Source: an uncultured Phocaeicola sp.
GTDB lineage: Bacteria; Bacteroidota; Bacteroidia; Bacteroidales; Bacteroidaceae
Length of the DNA: 64,000 nucleotides
Assembly (NCBI GenBank): GCA_947626525.1
Contig: CANQSM010000001.1
Location: 62,001-126,000, forward strand
Direction of reading: 5' to 3'
Part shown: positions 21,233 through 34,214 of the stretch, one piece after another
Layout of the letters: each line of letters opens with the position of its first letter
Numbering within the stretch: position 1 is the first letter of the stretch
Translations under genes and position numbers: made by a program
The notes under the pieces: generated by a model
The model's input: only the letters and a program-made list of their open reading frames with translations
The model's database searches: none
What the model was told of the DNA's origin: nothing

Positions 21233-23185
21233 TTAATAACCCGGATTCTGTCCGAATTCTTCCGCATTATAAATCGCATCCAAAAATTCTTGAGGAATCG
21301 GACGAAGATAGTCTCTGTCCGCTCTGAAATTCGCGGCCGCGCGCTTGTTATACTTCGACAAGCGAGCTTCGAACGCATGATTACGTTTCAGTAAATACCA
21401 ACGACTATATTCACCACAAAGCTCACGTGCATATTCATCATAAATATACTCCATATCTATGTTTGCCGGAGCTTCTGAAGCATGAGCGCGGGTACGCAGG
21501 ACATCAATATACTGTTTGGCATCCGTCTTCCCTAACCGAACGGCAGCCTCCGCAGCAATCAGATACACCTCCGCAAAACGCATAATCGGCATATCCACGG
21601 TTTTTCTCTGTGCGTTTAAACCATAGAACTCCTCGCCCGGCATATTGAATTTGGACAATGCCGGATAAATGCTTGTCTGTCTGGTGGAAGCAGAATTATT
21701 TCCAAAATCAGTAGTCGTTTTAGCGACACCTTCCGCATCGTACAAGTCAAAGATATTATTTACGAAACAAGGATACTCCGCTCTTTCCTCATCAGTCAAT
21801 TTTTCCAAAGAACAATAGATACAGTATTGCCAGTCTTCTCCTTCTACAGGATGGGCAAGAGGCAATGCAGGATGCAAGATATTTCCCTCTGTATCTTTCT
21901 GATTGATGTAGCCGCTTCCATCAGGTTTCCAAACGCCCAGTTCGTCTGTTCCGTTGTTAATCAGCTCGAAGTGTTCATAGATAGTGGTACCTTTCCATCT
22001 CGAATCAATTTCGTATGTATCAATCAGCTTATCATCAATCACTTTCGAATAATTCTGACCATTACCATAAGCGAATTCATCGCCCCGCGCAGCAATACTG
22101 TATCCGGAGTAAGCCGTAATGAATGAGTAACGGAAACGGGTATCATTCATATCCTGAGCGAAGCACTCCATCAGATATTTAGAAGGCAAGAACACATTTG
22201 AGTTAGGACGGCCGTAGATAAAGTTACTCGTCTTATCTACCAAACCTAAATCGGTATATTCACCCAATTTAGGCAAGAAATGCCGAAACACCTCGCATTG
22301 TGAATAGTTTCCACTGTTATAAGCTTCCGAATCTTTCTTCGCACCGGTTGCCACAAACAAGAATTCTTTATTATTGCGATTGTTCTTTTCATTGAAAACA
22401 TCCGCGAAATCATTGTATAGATAAGCATTGTACTCATCTTTGTGCGCAATAAAATCAGTGGCTGTATCGTACGCCTTCTGCAGATAATCCACTCCATCCT
22501 CATCTTTCAAACCATACGCAGCCCCTTGGATGTAAGCACGGCAAAGAAGCCCCTTGGCTGTCTTTCTGGTTACACGACCGTAATTAGAAAAACTCACCGG
22601 CAACTTCTCCACGGCATATTTCAAGTCGGCAATAATTTGGGCATAAATTTCAGCAACAGAGCTACGAGTAGGATATAAATCCACCTCACCCGTTCCAGTA
22701 CCTTTCAGAGTCAACGCCACATCACCAAATTGCTCGGTCAAAATGTAATAATAAAACGCACGCAAACAACGAGCCTGCGCCACCATTTCTTCACGTTCCG
22801 CCTCTGTCAACCCTTCCGCATTCTCGGCACGTTCGCATACAGAGTTACAAATGGCGATGGTATTCATACTAAATCGCCATACTTTCTTCAAATAACCATC
22901 ACCCGGCAACAAGCCATCGTACGAATGATATCTCTGATAACTGTCCGAACGGGTAGGTTCCTCCCAAAGATCGGTTCCTCCTTCGGCAAACAGCACATAA
23001 TCGCTACTTTGATACAAAGCATTGAACAAAGGTGTATAACACTGATTTACCAGGCCCTCGAAAGTCTCCCTTTCCGTCAACTTCTCATCACCGGTTACCT
23101 TATTCGGATCATACGGGTCCAAACTACAAGCATTAAATGCCAAAACAGCCCCGATACAAGCCAATTTATATATATTCTTTTTCAT
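21233..23185 (-). CDS. RagB/SusD-family outer-membrane lipoprotein (PUL)
   Basis: Lipobox LAFNACSLDPYDPN; RFAEVYLIAAEAAVRLGKTDAKQYIDVLRTRAH; ELCGEYSRWYLLKRN. Confidence 0.93.
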   Translation of the reverse strand: MKKNIYKLACIGAVLAFNACSLDPYDPNKVTGDEKLTERETFEGLVNQCYTPLFNALYQSSDYVLFAEGGTDLWEEPTRSDSYQRYHSYDGLLPGDGYLKKVWRFSMNTIAICNSVCERAENAEGLTEAEREEMVAQARCLRAFYYYILTEQFGDVALTLKGTGTGEVDLYPTRSSVAEIYAQIIADLKYAVEKLPVSFSNYGRVTRKTAKGLLCRAYIQGAAYGLKDEDGVDYLQKAYDTATDFIAHKDEYNAYLYNDFADVFNEKNNRNNKEFLFVATGAKKDSEAYNSGNYSQCEVFRHFLPKLGEYTDLGLVDKTSNFIYGRPNSNVFLPSKYLMECFAQDMNDTRFRYSFITAYSGYSIAARGDEFAYGNGQNYSKVIDDKLIDTYEIDSRWKGTTIYEHFELINNGTDELGVWKPDGSGYINQKDTEGNILHPALPLAHPVEGEDWQYCIYCSLEKLTDEERAEYPCFVNNIFDLYDAEGVAKTTTDFGNNSASTRQTSIYPALSKFNMPGEEFYGLNAQRKTVDMPIMRFAEVYLIAAEAAVRLGKTDAKQYIDVLRTRAHASEAPANIDMEYIYDEYARELCGEYSRWYLLKRNHAFEARLSKYNKRAAANFRADRDYLRPIPQEFLDAIYNAEEFGQNPGY

Positions 23186-23200
23186 CTGATAACGTCTTAA

Positions 23201-26200
23201 TTAGAATGTTAAATTTAAACCAAATACAAACTCGCTACTCAACGGGAAGTCGATGCTACCGTTCATTTCCGGATCATAGTCTTTCACATATTTATTCGGA
23301 GAGAACACGAACAGATTCGTCGCCGTTCCATAAATGCGCAAGCGGCTTACACCAAATTTCTGACAGATGGATTTCGGCAAGGTATAACCCAATGTCACAT
23401 TTTTCAGTTTCCAGAACGAACCGTTTGTATAAGCCATATCCGAGGCACCCTCATAACCGGAATAGGAGGCTTCTCTCAATGCGTTGGCGGCATAGAACAG
23501 CACATTCTGGTCTTGTTCGAGCGTTGTGTCGTAGTAAGTGAAATATTCCGGAATGTTGTAGTTGGCAAAGTTCGGCTGATATTTACCTATCACCTTGTCA
23601 AACTTCATCATCTGTCCCCAACGGGCGTAGATAAAGAATGAAAAGTCGAAATCTTTATAAGTGAAAGTATTCTTGATACCTCCTGTCCAGTCGGGAGAAG
23701 TCTTGCCAATAATCATGCGGTCTTCACCTCCCAAGCCTGTGGTATAAGGATTCTCCGCAGTCAGATACACCTTTTCATTTGTATTCTTGTCATTATAGAA
23801 ATACCCGTTATTATCTTTATGCACATTCGGATAAACCATCTTTACGTCACCCGGCTCACGACCAAACAACGCGGCAGTCTCACGCTCGCTCCACTGCCAA
23901 ATACCTGTGACATTCCAACGATAGAATGCGTCGACAGCCTCGCCTACTTTCCAAGCTTTGTTCGCGTCCCAGCCGTTAATGATTACATCCTGGCCACCGG
24001 CCAACTTAGTAATCTCTTCCTTATTTTTAGCAAAAGTAAAGTTGGTAGTCCAAGAGAAGTTCTTCTTCACGATGTTGCGTGTAGTCAATGCCAGCTCAAT
24101 ACCGCGGTTTCGGGTTTCGGCAAAATTACCATCCATTCTGTACAGAGTCTTGTCATTGTAACCTCCCATAGTGTTAGGCAAATCTGTAGACATTATCACA
24201 TCCTTCGTCTTGGTATCGTAGTAATCCAAAGTCAAGTCGATGCGGTTGTTCAAGAACGAAGCGTCAATACCTATATTCAAGTTATAAGAACGTTCCCAAG
24301 TAAGTAACGGGTTGGCTACATTTCTTTCGAAGAGAGTCGTGTTTACTTTCTCGCCACCCAGAGCCGTAGCACCTAATTCTATACTTGAAGTTCCCGGATA
24401 GTAACCAATGCCGGACGTAGAACCGGAAACTCCATAGCCCACACGGATTTTCAAGTTATCCAACCAACTTTGTGTCCGTTCCATAAAGCTTTCGTCAGAG
24501 ATACGCCATCCCAAAGACACAGCAGGGAAACTGTCCCAACGGTTATCTTTCGCCAAACGGGAAGATCCGTCCCAACGGCAAGAAACAGAAGCCAAATATT
24601 TACCCTTATACGAATAATTCATACGGGCCACATAACCCATACTTTTCGACATCGTATAGCTGTTGGCAATGGCTTTATTGTTGGCATTATTCAATCCGTA
24701 CCACAAAAGTTTATTATCAGCGATGCCGTCTCCTGACATTTTGAATGACTCGTTGCGGTCATGACTGTAAGAAGTCACACCGGTAAAGGTGAAAGCATGG
24801 TCTTCAGCTAAGGTAAAATTGTAGGTAAGGATGTTTTCCCATTTCCAGTTATATGAAGAGCTATTGGTAACCTCCCCGCTCACTTGATCGGAGCTACGCC
24901 CATTCGTCAACCATTTGTAGGAACCTTCGCCTTGGAACTTTCCAGAACGGGTGTGGCTGTAGTTACCGCCAATCTGCGAACGGATTGACAACCCTTTAAT
25001 AGGCTTCCAGTCCACATACGCATCCACATAAATCTTACCAGTACGGGAGTTGTTCTTGAAAACGCCCGGTTGCTCGTCTGCCAACATGTTAGGCTCCGCC
25101 GTGTCACCAACTACAGGGTATTGGTTCAGTGTACCATCTTCGTTCCAAACCACACCCAAAGGACGCGCAAACAACGCATCTTCGTACACTCCGCCACGCG
25201 CATTCTTATTGGTATATGAAGCCTGCGCATTGATACCGGCCGTAATCCATTGATTAATCTCTTGGTCGATGCGGAAACGAGTAGAATACACCTGGTAGTT
25301 ATCATTCTTGTACAAGCTCTCTTCATCCGAGTAGTTTAAAGAAAAGTAAGCCTTGGTCTTTTCCGTACCACCTGTTACCGAAATACTGTAGTTTTGCTCG
25401 AAACCGGTATTCAGCACCTCGTCTCCCCAATTAATCCATTGATTGTTGTTTACAGCATCCACGACAGCCTGATTACTGCTGAACAAATCACTCAGTTCTG
25501 TTCCCAATCCAGCTGCGCGGTTGGCATCACGAAGCATGTTCAAATAGCTTTCGCCCGAACGCATTTTCATGGTATTCATTGCTTTGGTAAAACCAGCATA
25601 CATATCGAAATTGATTACAGGTTTACCAGTTGTTGCCTGTTTGGTCGTAACAATAATCACACCATTCGCACCTGCAGAACCATATACGGCCGTAGAAGAA
25701 GCATCTTTCAAAACCTCAATGGATTCGATATCATTCGGATTCAAAGTATTGATATCGCCAGGCATTCCATCAATGATGTATGTAGGGCTACCACCTGTCA
25801 ATTCTTTTGAATCATCGTCATACTGCATGGAACGTACACCACGCAACTGGACACTTGACGTAGTACCAGCCTGACCGGAAGATTTAGTTATATCCAAACC
25901 TGCCACTTTACCTTGCAGCGCGTCCATAGGACGAGATCCCGGATTCAGACGAATGTCTTCACTCTTAACAGAAGTCACGGCACCCGTCAGGTCGCGTTTC
26001 TTCACCGTACCATAACCGATGACCACCACTTCATCAAGAAGCTGGTTGTCCGGCTGCATTTTAATAGAGAGAGGAGTTTTGCCAATCTGTACTTCCTGAG
26101 TCTTATAACCGATATAAGAAATTTCCAGCGTTTTGGCATTGGCCGGAACATTGAGAGAGAAATTACCGTCGAAATCGGTAATCGTACCCGTAGTGGTACC

Positions 26201-26440
26201 TTTCACCACTACCGAAACACCAATCATAGGCTCGCCATTTTCATCGAGAATAGAACCTTTTACTGTCTTTTGCTGTTGTACAGATTGGGTTGCCTGCACA
26301 TTGTTGTTTGACACCGCAAAAGAATTCATAGGGGAAGACAGGCATAAACATGCCACTAAGCCTAAAACAACGGGAGAAGTATATTTTCTACCCCCCCCCA
26401 CGCCTTTTGAAAAGACGCAATTAACTTGCTCTTTTTTCAT
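23201..26440 (-). CDS. SusC/RagA TonB-linked outer-membrane transporter (PUL), no STN domain
   Basis: CarboxypepD_reg (VKGSILDENGEPMIGVSVVVKGTTTGTITDFDGNFSL), TonB-box-like VVVIGYGTVKKRDLTGAV, plug and barrel, ends FVFGLNLTF. Confidence 0.96.
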   Translation of the reverse strand: MKKEQVNCVFSKGVGGGRKYTSPVVLGLVACLCLSSPMNSFAVSNNNVQATQSVQQQKTVKGSILDENGEPMIGVSVVVKGTTTGTITDFDGNFSLNVPANAKTLEISYIGYKTQEVQIGKTPLSIKMQPDNQLLDEVVVIGYGTVKKRDLTGAVTSVKSEDIRLNPGSRPMDALQGKVAGLDITKSSGQAGTTSSVQLRGVRSMQYDDDSKELTGGSPTYIIDGMPGDINTLNPNDIESIEVLKDASSTAVYGSAGANGVIIVTTKQATTGKPVINFDMYAGFTKAMNTMKMRSGESYLNMLRDANRAAGLGTELSDLFSSNQAVVDAVNNNQWINWGDEVLNTGFEQNYSISVTGGTEKTKAYFSLNYSDEESLYKNDNYQVYSTRFRIDQEINQWITAGINAQASYTNKNARGGVYEDALFARPLGVVWNEDGTLNQYPVVGDTAEPNMLADEQPGVFKNNSRTGKIYVDAYVDWKPIKGLSIRSQIGGNYSHTRSGKFQGEGSYKWLTNGRSSDQVSGEVTNSSSYNWKWENILTYNFTLAEDHAFTFTGVTSYSHDRNESFKMSGDGIADNKLLWYGLNNANNKAIANSYTMSKSMGYVARMNYSYKGKYLASVSCRWDGSSRLAKDNRWDSFPAVSLGWRISDESFMERTQSWLDNLKIRVGYGVSGSTSGIGYYPGTSSIELGATALGGEKVNTTLFERNVANPLLTWERSYNLNIGIDASFLNNRIDLTLDYYDTKTKDVIMSTDLPNTMGGYNDKTLYRMDGNFAETRNRGIELALTTRNIVKKNFSWTTNFTFAKNKEEITKLAGGQDVIINGWDANKAWKVGEAVDAFYRWNVTGIWQWSERETAALFGREPGDVKMVYPNVHKDNNGYFYNDKNTNEKVYLTAENPYTTGLGGEDRMIIGKTSPDWTGGIKNTFTYKDFDFSFFIYARWGQMMKFDKVIGKYQPNFANYNIPEYFTYYDTTLEQDQNVLFYAANALREASYSGYEGASDMAYTNGSFWKLKNVTLGYTLPKSICQKFGVSRLRIYGTATNLFVFSPNKYVKDYDPEMNGSIDFPLSSEFVFGLNLTF

Positions 26441-26492: not shown

Positions 26493-26523
26493 CAAAGCTA
26501 TGTAAAATTATCGAAACATAAAA
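26493..26523 (-). promoter_or_regulatory. Putative promoter of susC
   Basis: -7 element TAGCTTTG on minus (+ strand CAAAGCTA 26493-26500); -33 element only loosely matching. Confidence 0.4.
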
Positions 26524-26552: not shown

Positions 26553-26599
26553 TCAAAAAAAAGTGCGTTTTTAACTTTTCACAGTCTAAAAACGCACTT
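26553..26599 (-). terminator. Rho-independent terminator between enzyme operon and susC
   Basis: Minus strand AAGTGCGTTTTTA - loop - TAAAAACGCACTT (13-bp perfect stem) running into a T-tract. Confidence 0.85.
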
Positions 26600-26630: not shown

Positions 26631-29600
26631 TCATTTGATACGTTGTAACCAGTAAGCTCCGGCATGCTCCACATTCAGCGTATAAGTGCCGTTCACTTTT
26701 ACTTTCCTTGTCAGGAGTGTCACTTCCCCACTGTGGGGATGGATATATTTTACCGCATACGTACCGGACGGCAACGAGAGTTCTATATTTCCTTCTTGCC
26801 GAGTATATGCCACCGCACCGTTCTCTCCGGCCAGCAACTGATAAGTCGAGTTTTCCTTCACCACCGGTTTCATGTGGGGCACGGCGGAAAGGAAATCTTT
26901 GTCCTCCACCGGCAACACCGGACAGGAACCTCCGCCCATCAGCACGGCCCACCCACAGCTCGGGTAGTCTTGCGCATACAGCGTGACGGCTTTCTCCGGA
27001 TACCTGGTACGGTATTCGCTCACCGCCTTATAAGCTCCTTCATACCCCATCGTGCCTACTTTCATCTTACGGGCATGCTGGCGGGGAGCCATGTTCTTGC
27101 CTCCCTCGGGAGCATAGACGCTGCCGTCCTGACGATAATGCCAATAACGGATGTCAATGATATCGACAACAGCCGCGCGTTGGGGATCACTCAAAATAGC
27201 ATCCTGCACATCCTTGGTCGTACTCAGCGCTACAAGGGCATGTTTCCCGGTTTCCTTTTCCCACTCGGCAATGCAGTCTATCCAGAACTGCACGAAATGC
27301 AACGGGCCGGTAAACTCTTCGCTAATCAGCTGCACCACGTTGGCATTATCCGCGAAATGATCCAGACACATGCGAATGTACTGACGGTGCAAGGCCCGAC
27401 GGACCGGATGGTTGACATCATAGAACATATCGGCCACAAACACACGTTTGTCTCCGGCAAAGTTCACCGGTTCGGGGAATCCCGTATTGTTGATATTGTT
27501 GGCCGAACGCCACGGACAATCCACCCAATGCGCTCCGGCTTCAATGATGTTGTGTTGGAAATAGTTCTGATGGAACAGCAGCAGGCCTTCCGTCTCCGCC
27601 TTGTCGGCAAACTCTTTCAACCGGCCGAAGTACCAAACGTTCGGACGGGTCAGGTCATATTTGCTCATGCCTTCCCATGCCGTACCCTGTCCGCTACGGG
27701 CAAAGGGCTGTTCGTAGAACGGTGCCCACACATCCCCGTCGCGCCGGCGGATGCGTTCGTGGTCGTCACGGCGACGGTCGTACCAGAGGCCGTAGTTGTG
27801 GTCCATCACCAAACTATGGTGACGTTTCATGTTCACAATCACCGAGTCGATACGGTCGGTCAGTCCTTCGCCCTCCATATCCGGCACGAAGCGGGTGATG
27901 TGGTCGGAAGCTTTCGGCAAGGCATTATATTTGATGCTTCCGCTCCACCAGCGGACATTCTGACGATTTCCAACCAACAGGCAATCATCAGCCACCAGAC
28001 AGCCGTTCTCTATGCCGTAGCGCTTCTTCGGCGCGGTCACCCGGAAAGGTTCCTTATATTTCACCTCTTTCACCGATGCCACTCCTTCGGTAGAGACCGA
28101 AGCGGGGAAAACAGCCTGGCCAATCCATCTCTGCATCGTCATCACAGGCTCGTAAGCCTCTTTGGCCATAGCCATCGCCTGTTCCACGGTAGGACTACTG
28201 GTGGGTTCTCCCTTCAGATAGAGCACACGTGTCCGGGCCGATACATCGGTGTTCAAGCGCTCCGCCAATTGGGCGTCGAACAAACTTCGGGGAGAGACGT
28301 GGCTGTCCGACGAGCCCCATTCCCCATCGCCCGAAAATTGGGCCCAGCAACCATAAGCATAGTTCTTGGCATCCGCCGCCGGAGAATAGCATTTAATCTC
28401 CGCCGCCGTACATTGCCAGAACATACTGTTCGCCGTATTCCAGCCGGCTCCGTTCTTGGCCTGTCCCAAATTGGTGAAAGCCAAATCGTTCCCGTCGATA
28501 TTCACTATATCGAACAGCAAGCCACAAGCCCATGCGCCGACAGAACCGCTGAAGCCTTTCGACTCTTTCGACTGACACTGTACGAAAGCGTTCGGACCCG
28601 GAGCAGCCATGCCTGCCGAAAAGTCGTTGATACCGTATTCGGAATAGCAGCGTTGGAAGAGTGTGTGCTGTCCTAACGTGTAGAACGTACGCCGGCGCAT
28701 TCCGGCAATCTCCGAAACAGGATTCGTCGCGATACAGTCTTCCACCGTCACTTTCGAGGCTTGGTGCCGCACAATCACGGCACTTCCGGCAAACTGTTTG
28801 AAATCCACGTTCCTCACCCAACAGTTCTCCGCATTATTTATGGAAACACCTGTCCAGGCATGGTTTTCATCCATCGGGTAACGTCCGTCATAGTCCGAAA
28901 CGAGAGTCAGATTCTCTACGCCACTGTCGGCAACGCGTCCGGTCCAAGTATAAAGCAGGATGCTCGCCTGGCCTTCCGACTTGTTCAACGCCATGCTGAG
29001 CGGGGCATCCAACGTCACCAAATTGCCGTGAATCTCTTTTACCGAACGGTCCCAGTTCAGATCCTGATCTCCTTTTTTCCATCCCAACGCACCAATGCCT
29101 CCGCCAAATACGTCACACTTCAACGACTTGATCCATGCCACCTCGGCCGGACGATACACCATCACACGGTCGCCCGGTCTCAATGCCGAAGCGGACTTCA
29201 CCTGCAACACGCAATCGTTTACCGGCACATAGTCGGAAGTCACCTCTATCGTATCCGTCACCCGATAGTCATTTGTCCCTTCGATATAGAGCACGGCGCC
29301 TCTGTCATATCCTCGTTTCACCAGCGCCGTACCGGCCTTATCGGCTCCACGCAACACGACACCGGAAGCGGTGACACGAAGCGCGTTGTCAAGATGATAG
29401 ACCCCTTTTTCAAGCAATACAGCTCCCCGGAAGCCATTTGCATCGGGCCGCAAGGAGGAGACATAATTGATGGCCTTCTGAATCAAGGCACTGTTGTCGC
29501 CTTCTTCGGGCGATACATACACGGCTACCGGCACATTCGGAAGGTCCTCATTCGAATTCTTGTAACCACAATAAGAGAAATCCAGTATGCGGTTCCCTTT

Positions 29601-29726
29601 CGCGTCTTTCTGATACTGGATGTGTTTTCCTTCGGAACTTAAAGGAAAGGTTTGCGCTTGAAGTTGCGCAAACCCTAATGCCATCAGTACCAAACCTAAA
29701 AATGTTTTCAGATTGATTTTCTTCAT
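26631..29726 (-). CDS. Pectate-lyase-superfamily-like beta-helix fused to a TIM-barrel-like C-terminal region (DUF6298-like)
   Basis: Signal peptide; N-terminal beta-helix (GVYHLDNALRVTASGVVLRGADKAGTAL...VENLTLVSDYDG...NCWVRNVDFKQFAGSAV); C-terminal half with VQLISEEFTGPLHFVQFWIDCIAEWEKETG and DIIDIRYWHYRQDG. Confidence 0.65.
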   Translation of the reverse strand: MKKINLKTFLGLVLMALGFAQLQAQTFPLSSEGKHIQYQKDAKGNRILDFSYCGYKNSNEDLPNVPVAVYVSPEEGDNSALIQKAINYVSSLRPDANGFRGAVLLEKGVYHLDNALRVTASGVVLRGADKAGTALVKRGYDRGAVLYIEGTNDYRVTDTIEVTSDYVPVNDCVLQVKSASALRPGDRVMVYRPAEVAWIKSLKCDVFGGGIGALGWKKGDQDLNWDRSVKEIHGNLVTLDAPLSMALNKSEGQASILLYTWTGRVADSGVENLTLVSDYDGRYPMDENHAWTGVSINNAENCWVRNVDFKQFAGSAVIVRHQASKVTVEDCIATNPVSEIAGMRRRTFYTLGQHTLFQRCYSEYGINDFSAGMAAPGPNAFVQCQSKESKGFSGSVGAWACGLLFDIVNIDGNDLAFTNLGQAKNGAGWNTANSMFWQCTAAEIKCYSPAADAKNYAYGCWAQFSGDGEWGSSDSHVSPRSLFDAQLAERLNTDVSARTRVLYLKGEPTSSPTVEQAMAMAKEAYEPVMTMQRWIGQAVFPASVSTEGVASVKEVKYKEPFRVTAPKKRYGIENGCLVADDCLLVGNRQNVRWWSGSIKYNALPKASDHITRFVPDMEGEGLTDRIDSVIVNMKRHHSLVMDHNYGLWYDRRRDDHERIRRRDGDVWAPFYEQPFARSGQGTAWEGMSKYDLTRPNVWYFGRLKEFADKAETEGLLLFHQNYFQHNIIEAGAHWVDCPWRSANNINNTGFPEPVNFAGDKRVFVADMFYDVNHPVRRALHRQYIRMCLDHFADNANVVQLISEEFTGPLHFVQFWIDCIAEWEKETGKHALVALSTTKDVQDAILSDPQRAAVVDIIDIRYWHYRQDGSVYAPEGGKNMAPRQHARKMKVGTMGYEGAYKAVSEYRTRYPEKAVTLYAQDYPSCGWAVLMGGGSCPVLPVEDKDFLSAVPHMKPVVKENSTYQLLAGENGAVAYTRQEGNIELSLPSGTYAVKYIHPHSGEVTLLTRKVKVNGTYTLNVEHAGAYWLQRIK

Positions 29727-31420
29727 TAGAACAGACTTTTACGTTTAGCCAATGTATCATAGTTGTTTTTCACATCCGTCCAGTCCACTTTCTTGGTCGG
29801 ATCGATGCCGTTGATGTATTTCTCTATGTTGGTATACCCGTCTCCATTGCAGTCTTTCACCGCATCCGAAGCGTCATTCGGGTTCAAGCCGTACTTGATT
29901 TCCCAAGCATCCGGCATACCGTCGCCATCCGTATCCTGACAGGCATCGCCTTTATATTCGGGCAATCCTCCTACCTGACGCGGGTCGGTGATGATGCCGT
30001 TCTTGTACGAATCGGCAGGCAGACGACGCTTTACATACGGCGTAGCGCTCAAATATTTATCCGCGTCTTCCACATAAATGGCCTTGCCTGTCTTCACGGT
30101 CTTGATGACACGCGCATCCACCGCATCCCGTTTGGGAAACGATGCACCGGCATGATCCAATACAAAATCATAAGCTTCTTTGGCATCCATAATGGTCACG
30201 TTAGGCATTGGGAAAGGTTGGTCCACACGAATTTCAGCCATCCGCTCTCCTACACCGCCCTGATTGCCAATCTGCACACCACCAGCCCAGTTGTCCGCTG
30301 TCACTTTCTCGTTATCCCACACAACATTGCCCGTAACATACGCCTTGCCGTACCGGTCACCGAATTCCTTACTCCGGCCCGACTCCAACTTGACGATACG
30401 GTAACGAATGGGCGCATCAGGTTTGTTAGTATTGGTCATCGGACCCGGTTTAAAGTTGTTGTTGATTATGTTCAAACGGCTGGTATGGTCACCGCCGTCC
30501 ACCGAACGGTTCCACCAGTTATAGGTCACATTATTGACGAAATTGAAGTCTTCATCCATACCGATGGAACAATTGCGCGAAATGTTCGACGCAAACAGAT
30601 TCCGGGCAAACATACAGTTGTGCCCGCCGATGGTAGCGCCAAAAGCGTGGTTATACAGGTCGAGTGCTTCCGAAAAAATAGAGTTTTGAATGGTGATATT
30701 CACCGTAGGCAACTTATCGCCCTGTCCAGTTTCCGGATTGCGGTTATATACATGACGATAGATAGACATGTTTTCATCCAGTCCCCATGAAGCGGAAACG
30801 TGGTCAATCATGACATTACCCACCGCATTACCTCCCAACGCATCATCACGGAAAGCCACATCCTGCGCGCCACGGCGAAAACGCATATGGCGAATCACCA
30901 CATCGTGTGTATCAATCAGAAACGAAGCACCGGTAACACAGACCCCGTCACCCGGAGCAGTCTGGCCTGCAATGGTAATATACGGAGCACGCACATTGAT
31001 TGGTGAATTCAAACGAATAACCCCCGAAACATTAAATACCACAATACGGGCACCCCCTGTCTCACAAGCTTCACGCAACGTTCCGGGACCACGGTCGGCC
31101 AAAGAAGTCACGACTATTACTTTTCCTCCACGTCCACCAGGCGTATAAGCGCCGCCTCCTTCCGCACCGGGAAACGCAGGAATATCGCTTTTCATTAAAT
31201 CTTCCGGCTTTGAAGCCCATGGCCGATACGGACGACCGTTTTCTTTTTCTTCTTTCTGCACCGTCGGGTAAGCCTTTTCCCAAGCCTGGTCCGACAGGCG
31301 ATCAAATTCTGCCGTTTGTCTCGCCGCACGAGCCTTTACAGAATCTGGAATTACCGGATACTGTGCCGCCAAAGGCAACACGCAAGCCGTCAACACCATC
31401 ATTGATACAATTTTCTTCAT
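29726..31420 (-). CDS. Pectate lyase, PL1-like, with C-terminal calcium-binding-type repeat
   Basis: PAFPGAEGGGAYTPGGRGGKVIVVTSLADRGPGTLREACE; WGLDENMSIYRH; C-terminus DTDGDGMPDAWEIKYGLNPNDASDAVKDCNGDGYTNIEKYING. Likely start 31420; ORF extends to 31525. Confidence 0.85.
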   Translation of the reverse strand: MKKIVSMMVLTACVLPLAAQYPVIPDSVKARAARQTAEFDRLSDQAWEKAYPTVQKEEKENGRPYRPWASKPEDLMKSDIPAFPGAEGGGAYTPGGRGGKVIVVTSLADRGPGTLREACETGGARIVVFNVSGVIRLNSPINVRAPYITIAGQTAPGDGVCVTGASFLIDTHDVVIRHMRFRRGAQDVAFRDDALGGNAVGNVMIDHVSASWGLDENMSIYRHVYNRNPETGQGDKLPTVNITIQNSIFSEALDLYNHAFGATIGGHNCMFARNLFASNISRNCSIGMDEDFNFVNNVTYNWWNRSVDGGDHTSRLNIINNNFKPGPMTNTNKPDAPIRYRIVKLESGRSKEFGDRYGKAYVTGNVVWDNEKVTADNWAGGVQIGNQGGVGERMAEIRVDQPFPMPNVTIMDAKEAYDFVLDHAGASFPKRDAVDARVIKTVKTGKAIYVEDADKYLSATPYVKRRLPADSYKNGIITDPRQVGGLPEYKGDACQDTDGDGMPDAWEIKYGLNPNDASDAVKDCNGDGYTNIEKYINGIDPTKKVDWTDVKNNYDTLAKRKSLF

Positions 31421-31598
31421 TTCTTTTACTTTTAGTTTATTCCGCCAATAGTCCTTACACAGAAGATAGAGCACGGAACATGATTGACAAACAACCGTTC
31501 CGTTTTTTTTCTCACTTCTTATCATACGGACTTGCGAAAGTCATGTTTTTAATATTAAAATGTCTACCTCAATTCTTCAATTACAGGAAATAGATGGA

Positions 31599-34214
31599 TT
31601 ATTGTATCCCAAACTCCTGTTGCTGCTTATCTACTTCTTCCAGCAACTTGCGTTTTTCCTCTTCCGAAAGTTGCGCGCCTCCCTCTTTCTTCGATATGGA
31701 AACCGTTTGTGCCGGACGATTTTCGTCAACATAACAGAAAGGTAACTCCGCAGGAATACTTTCGAATTCTATTTCAGCCGGAGCAGGTGCATGAGTTCCT
31801 TCAAATTGTACACGAGCTTTCACTTTAATCTTTCCGGCCTGTTTCGTGGAACGAATCAAGACCGGAGCCGAGCCCCATTCTACCGGACGAGGATTGGCAC
31901 AAATCGATCCGTCACCAATGATTTCCCCTTCTCCTTCTACCGTAAAGACTATATTTTCTTTAGCCAACCGACGTACGTTGCCATTATCATCCGTCACCTC
32001 AGCCACTACTACAATAAAATCCGAGCCATCAGCCACTAACGGTTTATCCTGCCAGTCAACATACAGACGAAGTTTTGTGGAACGACGCGAAGGCATTTTT
32101 TTCATCGTACAAACTACCTTACCATCGACAATGCCTTCAACCAACATATTTACTTTCTGCCAGTTTTTCTGTGTATAACTATATCCGCGGGCTTCCCAAA
32201 AATCCCAAGCATCTTCAAATACCACCGGTTCGTTAGGCATACCTCCTTTACGATGAACAACCGGTTTCGTCCAAGTTTTGGTTCCATCATACATTGAAAG
32301 ACGCACCGAATCACAATTACTGAAAACCACCACATCCTTATCCGAGAATTGTGTCATCTCATGCATGACATACACCATCGGACCGCTATCTGCCAACGGA
32401 TGATTCAAATCGGAAGCCGTCTGGCTACGGAACATGTAATAAGCATACTTCGGCTGACGGAAACAGTCGAACAATCCTCCCCAATACGGATCAGGATGAT
32501 ACCCTCGCTGATGATCAAACGGATGCCACTGCGCTCCCCCGACAAACTTGCCGGTTGTGCGATACAGTCCATCGTATGTTTTTGCCAACGACAAAGCTTG
32601 CACCTTCATAGGACGTTCGCCCCAACTACGTGAAGCACGATTGTCATTATTATGCGCATACCAATCGTCCACATTCTCACCAAACTCACGGGTAAAGATA
32701 CACTGTTCAGGCGCATCCGCCTTTTCATCATCCCCAGGCCAGCCATAGACTACATCATAATGCTCCTTCACTCCGGCCGAATGCATGTCGGCAGCAGCCA
32801 CAGGGCGCCCAGGATAAGGATACTCGTCTTTCGTTATCTGCAACGCTTTCAATGCAAAATCTTCCGGATAACGGGTTTCATTTAAAATCGGCTCCCACAT
32901 CAAAACGGAGGGATGATTACGATCACGACGAATGATATCGCGCGTATTTTGATATACCCGCTCCGCAAACTCAGGCTTTTTATTCCAAAACTGCCAACCG
33001 GGAGTTGCCACTATGACAAACAAACCCAATTCATCACAAGCATCCATAAAAGCAGGGTCTTGCGGATAATGGGCCACACGGATGATCCGGCATCCGGCAT
33101 CACGCAGACGCTTTGCATCGCGCCATTGCTGTGAATTGGGAACAGCATTACCTACATAAGCAAAATCTTGATGGCGGTTGGCACCAATTAATTGGCCAAA
33201 AGGCTTGCCATTCAACCAAAAACCTTCTTTTCCTTTAAACTCACATTGACGGATTCCAATACGAGTGGTTCCACCATCTACAGAGCGGCCTTCCTCTTTC
33301 ACACGTGATTCCACTCTATATAAATAAGGTGTATCCGGTGACCACAGACGAGGATTTTTTAACAAAAACTGCTGTCGGGCCGTTTTTGTCTCTCCTGCAG
33401 CGAGCGTAAGTTTCTTAGATGTTTTCTTTATGGATGTTCCATTCATATCCGTCAACATCGTCTCTATTGTCACATTCTTCGACTGCTTACCGCTGTTTTT
33501 CACATCCGTGTTGACAAATACCTCCGCACTTTCCTCGGAAATACGGTCAAAATGAACAAATACGCCACCACCAGCCACTTTACCGGCTTCTATCGCATCA
33601 GTAATGGCTACCGACGATTTGGCAATCATCCATACATCCCTGTAAATTCCTCCATGGTAGGCAAAATCTAGTGTATATTGTGTTTTACCGGGAGGAAAGC
33701 TTTTGTCGTCACTGTTATCAGTCATGACAGCTACCACACACGAATCGCCAGCCTGCACACCTGCTCCCGTTAACGATACAGTGACAGGCAAATAACCTCC
33801 CAAATGCTCTTTTACCAACTTCCCGTTCACGTAAAACTTCTGTTTTCCCATAATAGCTTCAAAATGCAGCTCCAATTCCTTGCCCGCCGTTTCTTTCGGT
33901 GCGATAAAATACTTGCGATACCAGGCTATGCCCTGATAATTGCGGCAACCGCTTGCCTCTGCCGGCATAAGTTCCACGGTATGAGGCGTAGAAACCACAG
34001 CCCAAGAAGAATCGTCAAAACCGATCGCTTCGGCATTCACTACATCTCCTTTATGAAAACGCCAACCAGGATTAAAATCATACACTTGCCGCCCACTCCC
34101 TTGCAAAGGAATGAATCCGGCAACCGAAATTTCCTGACGGGAGTGCTCTTCCGCCATCATAAAACCCGGAAAGCATAACCAAATCAGGATAGTTAAAATA
34201 TTCTTCATATACAT
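31599..34214 (-). CDS. Glycoside hydrolase family 2
   Basis: Sugar-binding (WAVVSTPHTVELMPAEASGCRNYQGIAWYRKYF) and TIM-barrel motifs (GANRHQDFAYVGNAVPNSQQWRDAKRLRDAGCRIIRVAHYPQ; RDRNHPSVLMWEPILNE). Confidence 0.9.
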   Translation of the reverse strand: MYMKNILTILIWLCFPGFMMAEEHSRQEISVAGFIPLQGSGRQVYDFNPGWRFHKGDVVNAEAIGFDDSSWAVVSTPHTVELMPAEASGCRNYQGIAWYRKYFIAPKETAGKELELHFEAIMGKQKFYVNGKLVKEHLGGYLPVTVSLTGAGVQAGDSCVVAVMTDNSDDKSFPPGKTQYTLDFAYHGGIYRDVWMIAKSSVAITDAIEAGKVAGGGVFVHFDRISEESAEVFVNTDVKNSGKQSKNVTIETMLTDMNGTSIKKTSKKLTLAAGETKTARQQFLLKNPRLWSPDTPYLYRVESRVKEEGRSVDGGTTRIGIRQCEFKGKEGFWLNGKPFGQLIGANRHQDFAYVGNAVPNSQQWRDAKRLRDAGCRIIRVAHYPQDPAFMDACDELGLFVIVATPGWQFWNKKPEFAERVYQNTRDIIRRDRNHPSVLMWEPILNETRYPEDFALKALQITKDEYPYPGRPVAAADMHSAGVKEHYDVVYGWPGDDEKADAPEQCIFTREFGENVDDWYAHNNDNRASRSWGERPMKVQALSLAKTYDGLYRTTGKFVGGAQWHPFDHQRGYHPDPYWGGLFDCFRQPKYAYYMFRSQTASDLNHPLADSGPMVYVMHEMTQFSDKDVVVFSNCDSVRLSMYDGTKTWTKPVVHRKGGMPNEPVVFEDAWDFWEARGYSYTQKNWQKVNMLVEGIVDGKVVCTMKKMPSRRSTKLRLYVDWQDKPLVADGSDFIVVVAEVTDDNGNVRRLAKENIVFTVEGEGEIIGDGSICANPRPVEWGSAPVLIRSTKQAGKIKVKARVQFEGTHAPAPAEIEFESIPAELPFCYVDENRPAQTVSISKKEGGAQLSEEEKRKLLEEVDKQQQEFGIQ

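Follow-up and report, generated by a model that had tools for sequence, protein, structure and literature searches.

The susC gene of the analysed stretch carries an uninterrupted run of nine G in the part that encodes its signal peptide. We consider it very probable, on sequence grounds, that this run is a slipped-strand phase-variation (simple-sequence contingency) locus and that it belongs to a genome-wide phasome.

A nine-G tract in the signal peptide region of susC

The tract lies exactly where the first-pass annotation had placed it, in the signal peptide region and within the first ~20 codons of susC (Table 1). The forward strand reads C9, and the coding (minus) strand begins ATG AAA AAA GAG CAA GTT AAT TGC GTC TTT TCA AAA GGC GTG GGG GGG GGT AGA AAA, so that the tract product is GVGGG in the n-region of the signal peptide. 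It is the sole G/C run of at least 8 in the window, i.e., the whole 64-kb stretch of DNA that was analysed; C7 at 51679 and C6 at 40809 follow in length.

By translation, the susC frame is open at G9 or G12 only. Stops appear after 25 residues at G8, after 17 at G10, after 16 at G7 and after 26 at G11, in agreement with the earlier claim that slips of one or two bases break the frame early. No downstream in-frame Met saves the signal peptide, as had also been proposed: the next one, M38, sits where the signal peptide ends, and a restart there would therefore lose the signal and export. Two features expected of a contingency locus are present at this site, namely a homopolymer of slip-prone length (about 8 units or more) within a reading frame or promoter, and the loss of expression, by translation, upon a change of one unit (G8 or G10).

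A start codon downstream of the tract is disfavoured, since the ATG at 26440 is backed by an upstream −7 box and by a stretch conserved in a congener from promoter to signal peptide. The consensus of the Bacteroidota −7 box is TAnnTTTG. Because a terminator-like hairpin followed by T8 stands before this box, susC-susD probably has a promoter of its own; a strict terminator pattern gave this hairpin no score. The gene product matches the SusC/RagA model TIGR04056 with 881 bits (G000:C1:85204-88269) and combines CarboxypepD_reg, Plug and barrel as in this model with an adjoining susD, which would probably be silenced along with susC by polarity.

Table 1. Features at and around the susC tract (positions in the window)
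Feature	Position	Strand	Details
susD partner	21233..23185	-	15 bp after susC; susD family
susC-type TonB-linked outer-membrane transporter	23201..26440	-	1079 aa, presently ON; ORF; CarbopepD_reg_2 and TonB Plug domains
Signal peptide region of susC, MKKEQVNCVFSKGVGGGRKYTSPVVLGLVACLCLSSPMNSFA	26315..26440	-	By inspection; tract-encoded GVGGG in n-region
3' flank TAGA	26387..26390	-	Right after susC G tract; wider class TA[A/G]A
G9 homopolymer (C9 on +)	26391..26399	-	nt 42-50 of susC CDS, codons 14-17; proposed slippage switch
Bacteroidota −7 box, TAGCTTTG	26493..26500	-	TAnnTTTG; ~53 nt 5' of susC ATG; kept in G014
Terminator-like hairpin, AAGTGCGTTTTTA..TAAAAACGCACTT + T8	26553..26599	-	Between susC-susD and upstream gene; fold z-score -3.8
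DUF6298 protein	26631..29726	-	Same polysaccharide-utilization cluster, upstream of susC; homologue also adjoins related susC in G014
599-aa protein	29726..31525	-	Weak TSP3 repeat only; domain search
GH2 glycoside hydrolase of cluster	31599..34214	-	Upstream of susC; domain search

Poly-G tracts across the genome

The genome from which the window is taken (G000; a draft of 3.77 Mb in 233 contigs, 99.96% complete) contains 61 G runs of at least 8 and 50 of at least 9. Whole-genome counts amount to 17 for G7, 11 for G8, 28 for G9, 16 for G10, four for G11 and two for G12; short runs, counted in the fetched stretches only, fall from 2486 (G3) through 512 (G4) and 84 (G5) to six (G6). Because shorter G runs decay this steeply, the length mode at 9-10 is a separate tract population. 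With about 50 such tracts in the genome, the susC tract is therefore no isolated oddity. The first-pass annotation, which had called a slip switch on a nutrient transporter unusual, had no view of these other tracts.

Within the genus, the number of G runs of at least 9 ranges from 0 to 57, with 57 in the congener G014, 50 in the own genome and 34 in the congener G013. The 143 family genomes outside the genus mostly had fewer than ten such runs and a few as many as 26, and the highest count among 118 other genomes of the order was 20. MutS is intact in all 15 of the 15 genomes of the genus, so that mismatch repair is not missing from this lineage and MutS loss is ruled out as the origin of the tracts; this is a point against the contingency reading.

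Although susC-type genes make up only ~3% of the genome, they hold 15 of the 50 own-genome tracts of at least 9 G, an about tenfold over-representation among tract genes (P about 1.5e-11; gene classes come from a simple open-frame rule, a subset having been checked against Pfam). These tracts occur within the signal peptide or immediately behind it, within CarboxypepD_reg, or in the stretch that links STN to CarboxypepD_reg; one lies in the plug domain. Other tract genes encode an O-acyltransferase (Acyl_transf_3), a hexapeptide transferase, an ion channel, FecR, AraC, FabH-like and PgpA proteins. The tracts are in excess over background and biased to surface functions, as expected of contingency loci.

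These distributions bear on the reading of the tract as a chance or neutral homopolymer, i.e., a Gly-rich stretch of codons that the n-region tolerates and that has no role in switching. GVGGG would be tolerable in the n-region of a signal peptide, and native Gly codons may account for some tracts (e.g., L099, with RVRGGGSI in the plug domain). However, the separate 9-10 length mode, the enrichment in susC, the many OFF genes described below and the absence of such tract numbers from most related genomes all speak against neutrality, which we therefore regard as quite improbable.

Two further loci deserve mention. A PgpA-type phosphatidylglycerophosphatase gene (L077:1757-2261, G000:C11) is split in frame by a G10 tract; it belongs to lipid metabolism and is not an obvious surface gene. 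In G014, a region at G014:C9:117880-144420 (L218-L221) harbours nine poly-G tracts within ~23 kb, among glycosyltransferase, acyltransferase, hexapeptide transferase and AMP-binding genes, and looks like a capsule locus with several independent switches.

ON and OFF states of tract genes

A gene's state was called from whether the open frame before the tract agrees with the one after it. Ten own-genome susC genes were ON, including that of the window (L068, L069, L075, L082, L089, L096, L099, L103, L104, L122), and five were OFF (L085, L086, L106, L107, L114). L114 carries a second frameshift, which weakens it as a clean OFF case. When one fixed rule was applied to all fetched stretches, 11 of 35 scorable G/C sites of at least 9 were out of frame, compared to 5 of 87 G/C runs of 5-7 (Fisher P 4e-4). 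Two split genes retain both halves in register: L076 matches the Acyl_transf_3 profile at 4-146 and then 158-320, and L077 the PgpA profile at 1-61 and then 67-140. The mixture of ON and OFF genes is repeated in both congeners, G013 and G014, and ON as well as OFF lengths occur within one locus class, a further feature expected of contingency loci. The contingency-locus reading put forward in the first-pass annotation is thus borne out in its sequence-level predictions: an exact tract at the 5' end, a frame broken by single slips, and sister tracts in both states.

Some OFF calls could represent decayed genes or errors of tract length in the draft assembly. Ordinary breakage of susC genes provides a baseline: two SusC-type genes (G000:C6:26117-29243, G000:C18:42841-44202) are split or contain a stop with no G tract of at least 8 listed.

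An assembly or sequencing artefact would mean that tract lengths, and with them the OFF frames, were miscalled in the drafts. Homopolymers are generally the commonest site of indel errors, the own assembly is a draft of many contigs, and several tracts lie close to contig ends (e.g., C9:703, C12:702, C40:414). Tract positions nevertheless recur across independently assembled genomes, and lengths of 11-12 are no single-base miscall of a fixed 9. Moreover, 6 of 43 A/T runs of at least 7 were flagged, five of which adjoin a G tract or one gene junction in the window, the other being L173, and frame breaks were found at 0 of 4 A/T runs of at least 8. We accordingly consider miscalling a very improbable source of the pattern.

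Tracts near promoters

Across three genomes, 14 intergenic tract ends lie 14-24 nt from a TAnnTTTG box on either strand, where the density at 25-79 nt predicts ~2. Since a distance of 14-24 nt from the −7 box places a tract near the −33 element, this position suggests transcriptional switching. Poly-G/poly-C loci of this promoter type are L070, L083, L097 and L116 in G000, L175, L181 and L186 in G013, and L204, L209, L211 and L213 in G014. Three G013 tracts (L175, L181, L190) have homologous flanking sequence in common.

The promoter-located tracts are left unexplained if programmed slippage of RNA polymerase or ribosomes at the G run sets expression, such that OFF lengths still yield some full-length protein. 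It is general knowledge that long homopolymers can slip in transcription too, and the OFF-length genes with otherwise intact downstream frames would fit such a process. Nonetheless, it also fails to explain why related genes differ in DNA length, and it can coexist with phase variation. We judge it highly unlikely that programmed slippage is what sets expression at the G runs.

Sequence following the tracts

The dinucleotide TA, often as TAAA or TAGA, follows 29 of the 50 own-genome tracts of at least 9 G, compared to about 6% of G4-G5 runs. In counts covering three genomes and three G011 loci, with classes set by the simple open-frame rule, TA followed 82% (59/72) of coding-strand, 79% (19/24) of template-strand and 48% (14/29) of intergenic tracts. 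In the genus, GGGGGGGGTARAA occurs 78 times versus 7 times for the reversed control. The flank bias is weaker in some other genera; for viral contigs, the matches listed for G9TAAAA and for the reversed control do not tell the two apart.

The flank might supply a stop codon (TAA or TAG; GGG TAA in a slipped frame). This would suit coding-strand tracts only; since the flank is also found at template-strand and intergenic tracts, we reject such a role as the only cause. An effect of the flank on slippage rate is likewise unsupported, given that slippage in PCR was unaffected by the flank in C. jejuni (PMC4965091). Because the TA flank is frequent at coding, template and intergenic tracts alike, tracts in this genus may be created or destabilised by a sequence-specific process, such as a factor that binds there or an activity that makes or extends them, with G9-10 plus TAAA as a signal at the DNA level. 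We offer this as a tentative and rather doubtful proposal; if true, the phasome would be enzymatically managed instead of arising from passive slippage.

Comparison across species

The species comparison covers one genome per species. A contig search with P0001 gave no close relatives and four distant matches only (27-40% identity). G014 contains a related cluster, with identities of 67% for DUF6298, 54% for SusC and 37% for SusD. Around the start of its susC (L217), the first ~525 bp show about 81-82% DNA identity to the window and the same in-frame G9. This is the only related copy of the window tract that was found; that the tract is kept in frame amid DNA of this identity counts for the contingency reading, and its equal length is a point on the side of a neutral run.

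At other sites the tract persists with a different net length. The G014 counterpart of L069 (ON) is L228, which is OFF and measures two bases less across the tract border; L086 (G12) and L225 (G9) are four bases apart in net length. Such pairs point to between-species length change at fixed sites, short of proof for switching in a clone. Within G013, L198 and L200 are 93% identical regions with a G9 each near a contig end and a two-base difference just before the tract.

Proposed mechanism and relation to known systems

In the phase-variation model that we favour, replication slippage by one or two G would convert susC between the in-frame form (G9/G12) and a form truncated after 16-26 residues. 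The SusCD transporter would be off in a fraction of cells and later on again, with slippage presumably frequent and reversible and susD falling with susC. The susC tract would be part of the ~50 poly-G loci of its genome, a class common to the congeners. Two modes can be envisaged: a translational one, in which the tract occupies the 5' coding part or the linkers that join the signal peptide, STN and CarboxypepD_reg domains, and, probably, a transcriptional one, with the tract 14-24 nt from the −7 box and near the −33 element. The benefit might be escape from phages, or bet-hedging with respect to glycans or surface antigens.

A poly-G phasome that covers SusC transporters together with capsule and acyltransferase genes would place a second layer of switching beside DNA inversion and, if true, would matter for the use of glycan niches, for resistance to phages and for the tracking of strains. 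Ordinary annotation hides switches of this kind, as OFF genes resemble pseudogenes or truncated ORFs, and homopolymer indels are often thrown out by short-read variant callers.

As the first-pass annotation had stated, Bacteroides surface systems are mostly known for invertases. A general review of phase variation names Bacteroides with invertases (PMC11868660), and a recent review describes phase variation in Bacteroidales by DNA inversion, SusCD included, with slipped-strand or homopolymer switching unmentioned (PMC12632263). The literature searched, which was thin on subscription journals and preprints, yielded no account of phase variation by homopolymers in Bacteroidales. In Bacteroides fragilis, SusC/SusD phase variation is described as being under invertase control (Nakayama-Imaohji 2009, as cited in PMC11868660; PMC12632263). 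Both cases concern phase variation of SusCD outer-membrane proteins in Bacteroidales, but site-specific DNA inversion operates there, whereas homopolymer slippage is proposed here.

Poly-G/C contingency loci are indeed established in other bacteria, as had been stated. The TonB-dependent haemoglobin receptors HmbR and HpuAB of Neisseria meningitidis have a poly-G in the reading frame (PMC3786947) and resemble the model proposed here in that a TonB-dependent outer-membrane receptor is turned ON or OFF by frame. They belong to another phylum and receptor family, whereas the present transporter is of the SusCD glycan type with its tract in the signal peptide n-region. The poly-G/poly-C phasome of Campylobacter jejuni NCTC11168 comprises 29 loci of 7 or more repeats, with ~1e-3 switches per division (PMC4965091). 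It likewise consists of genome-wide G8-G12 tracts, mostly in reading frames and partly intergenic, in surface-modifying genes. In contrast, the present genome has 61 loci of at least 8 G, a dominance of SusC-type genes, promoter tracts, a conserved TAAA 3' flank and an intact MutS. Taken together, ordinary slipped-strand phase variation fits best, a known kind of switch that is apparently new in its host group, in its gene class and in its mixture of promoter and coding sites.
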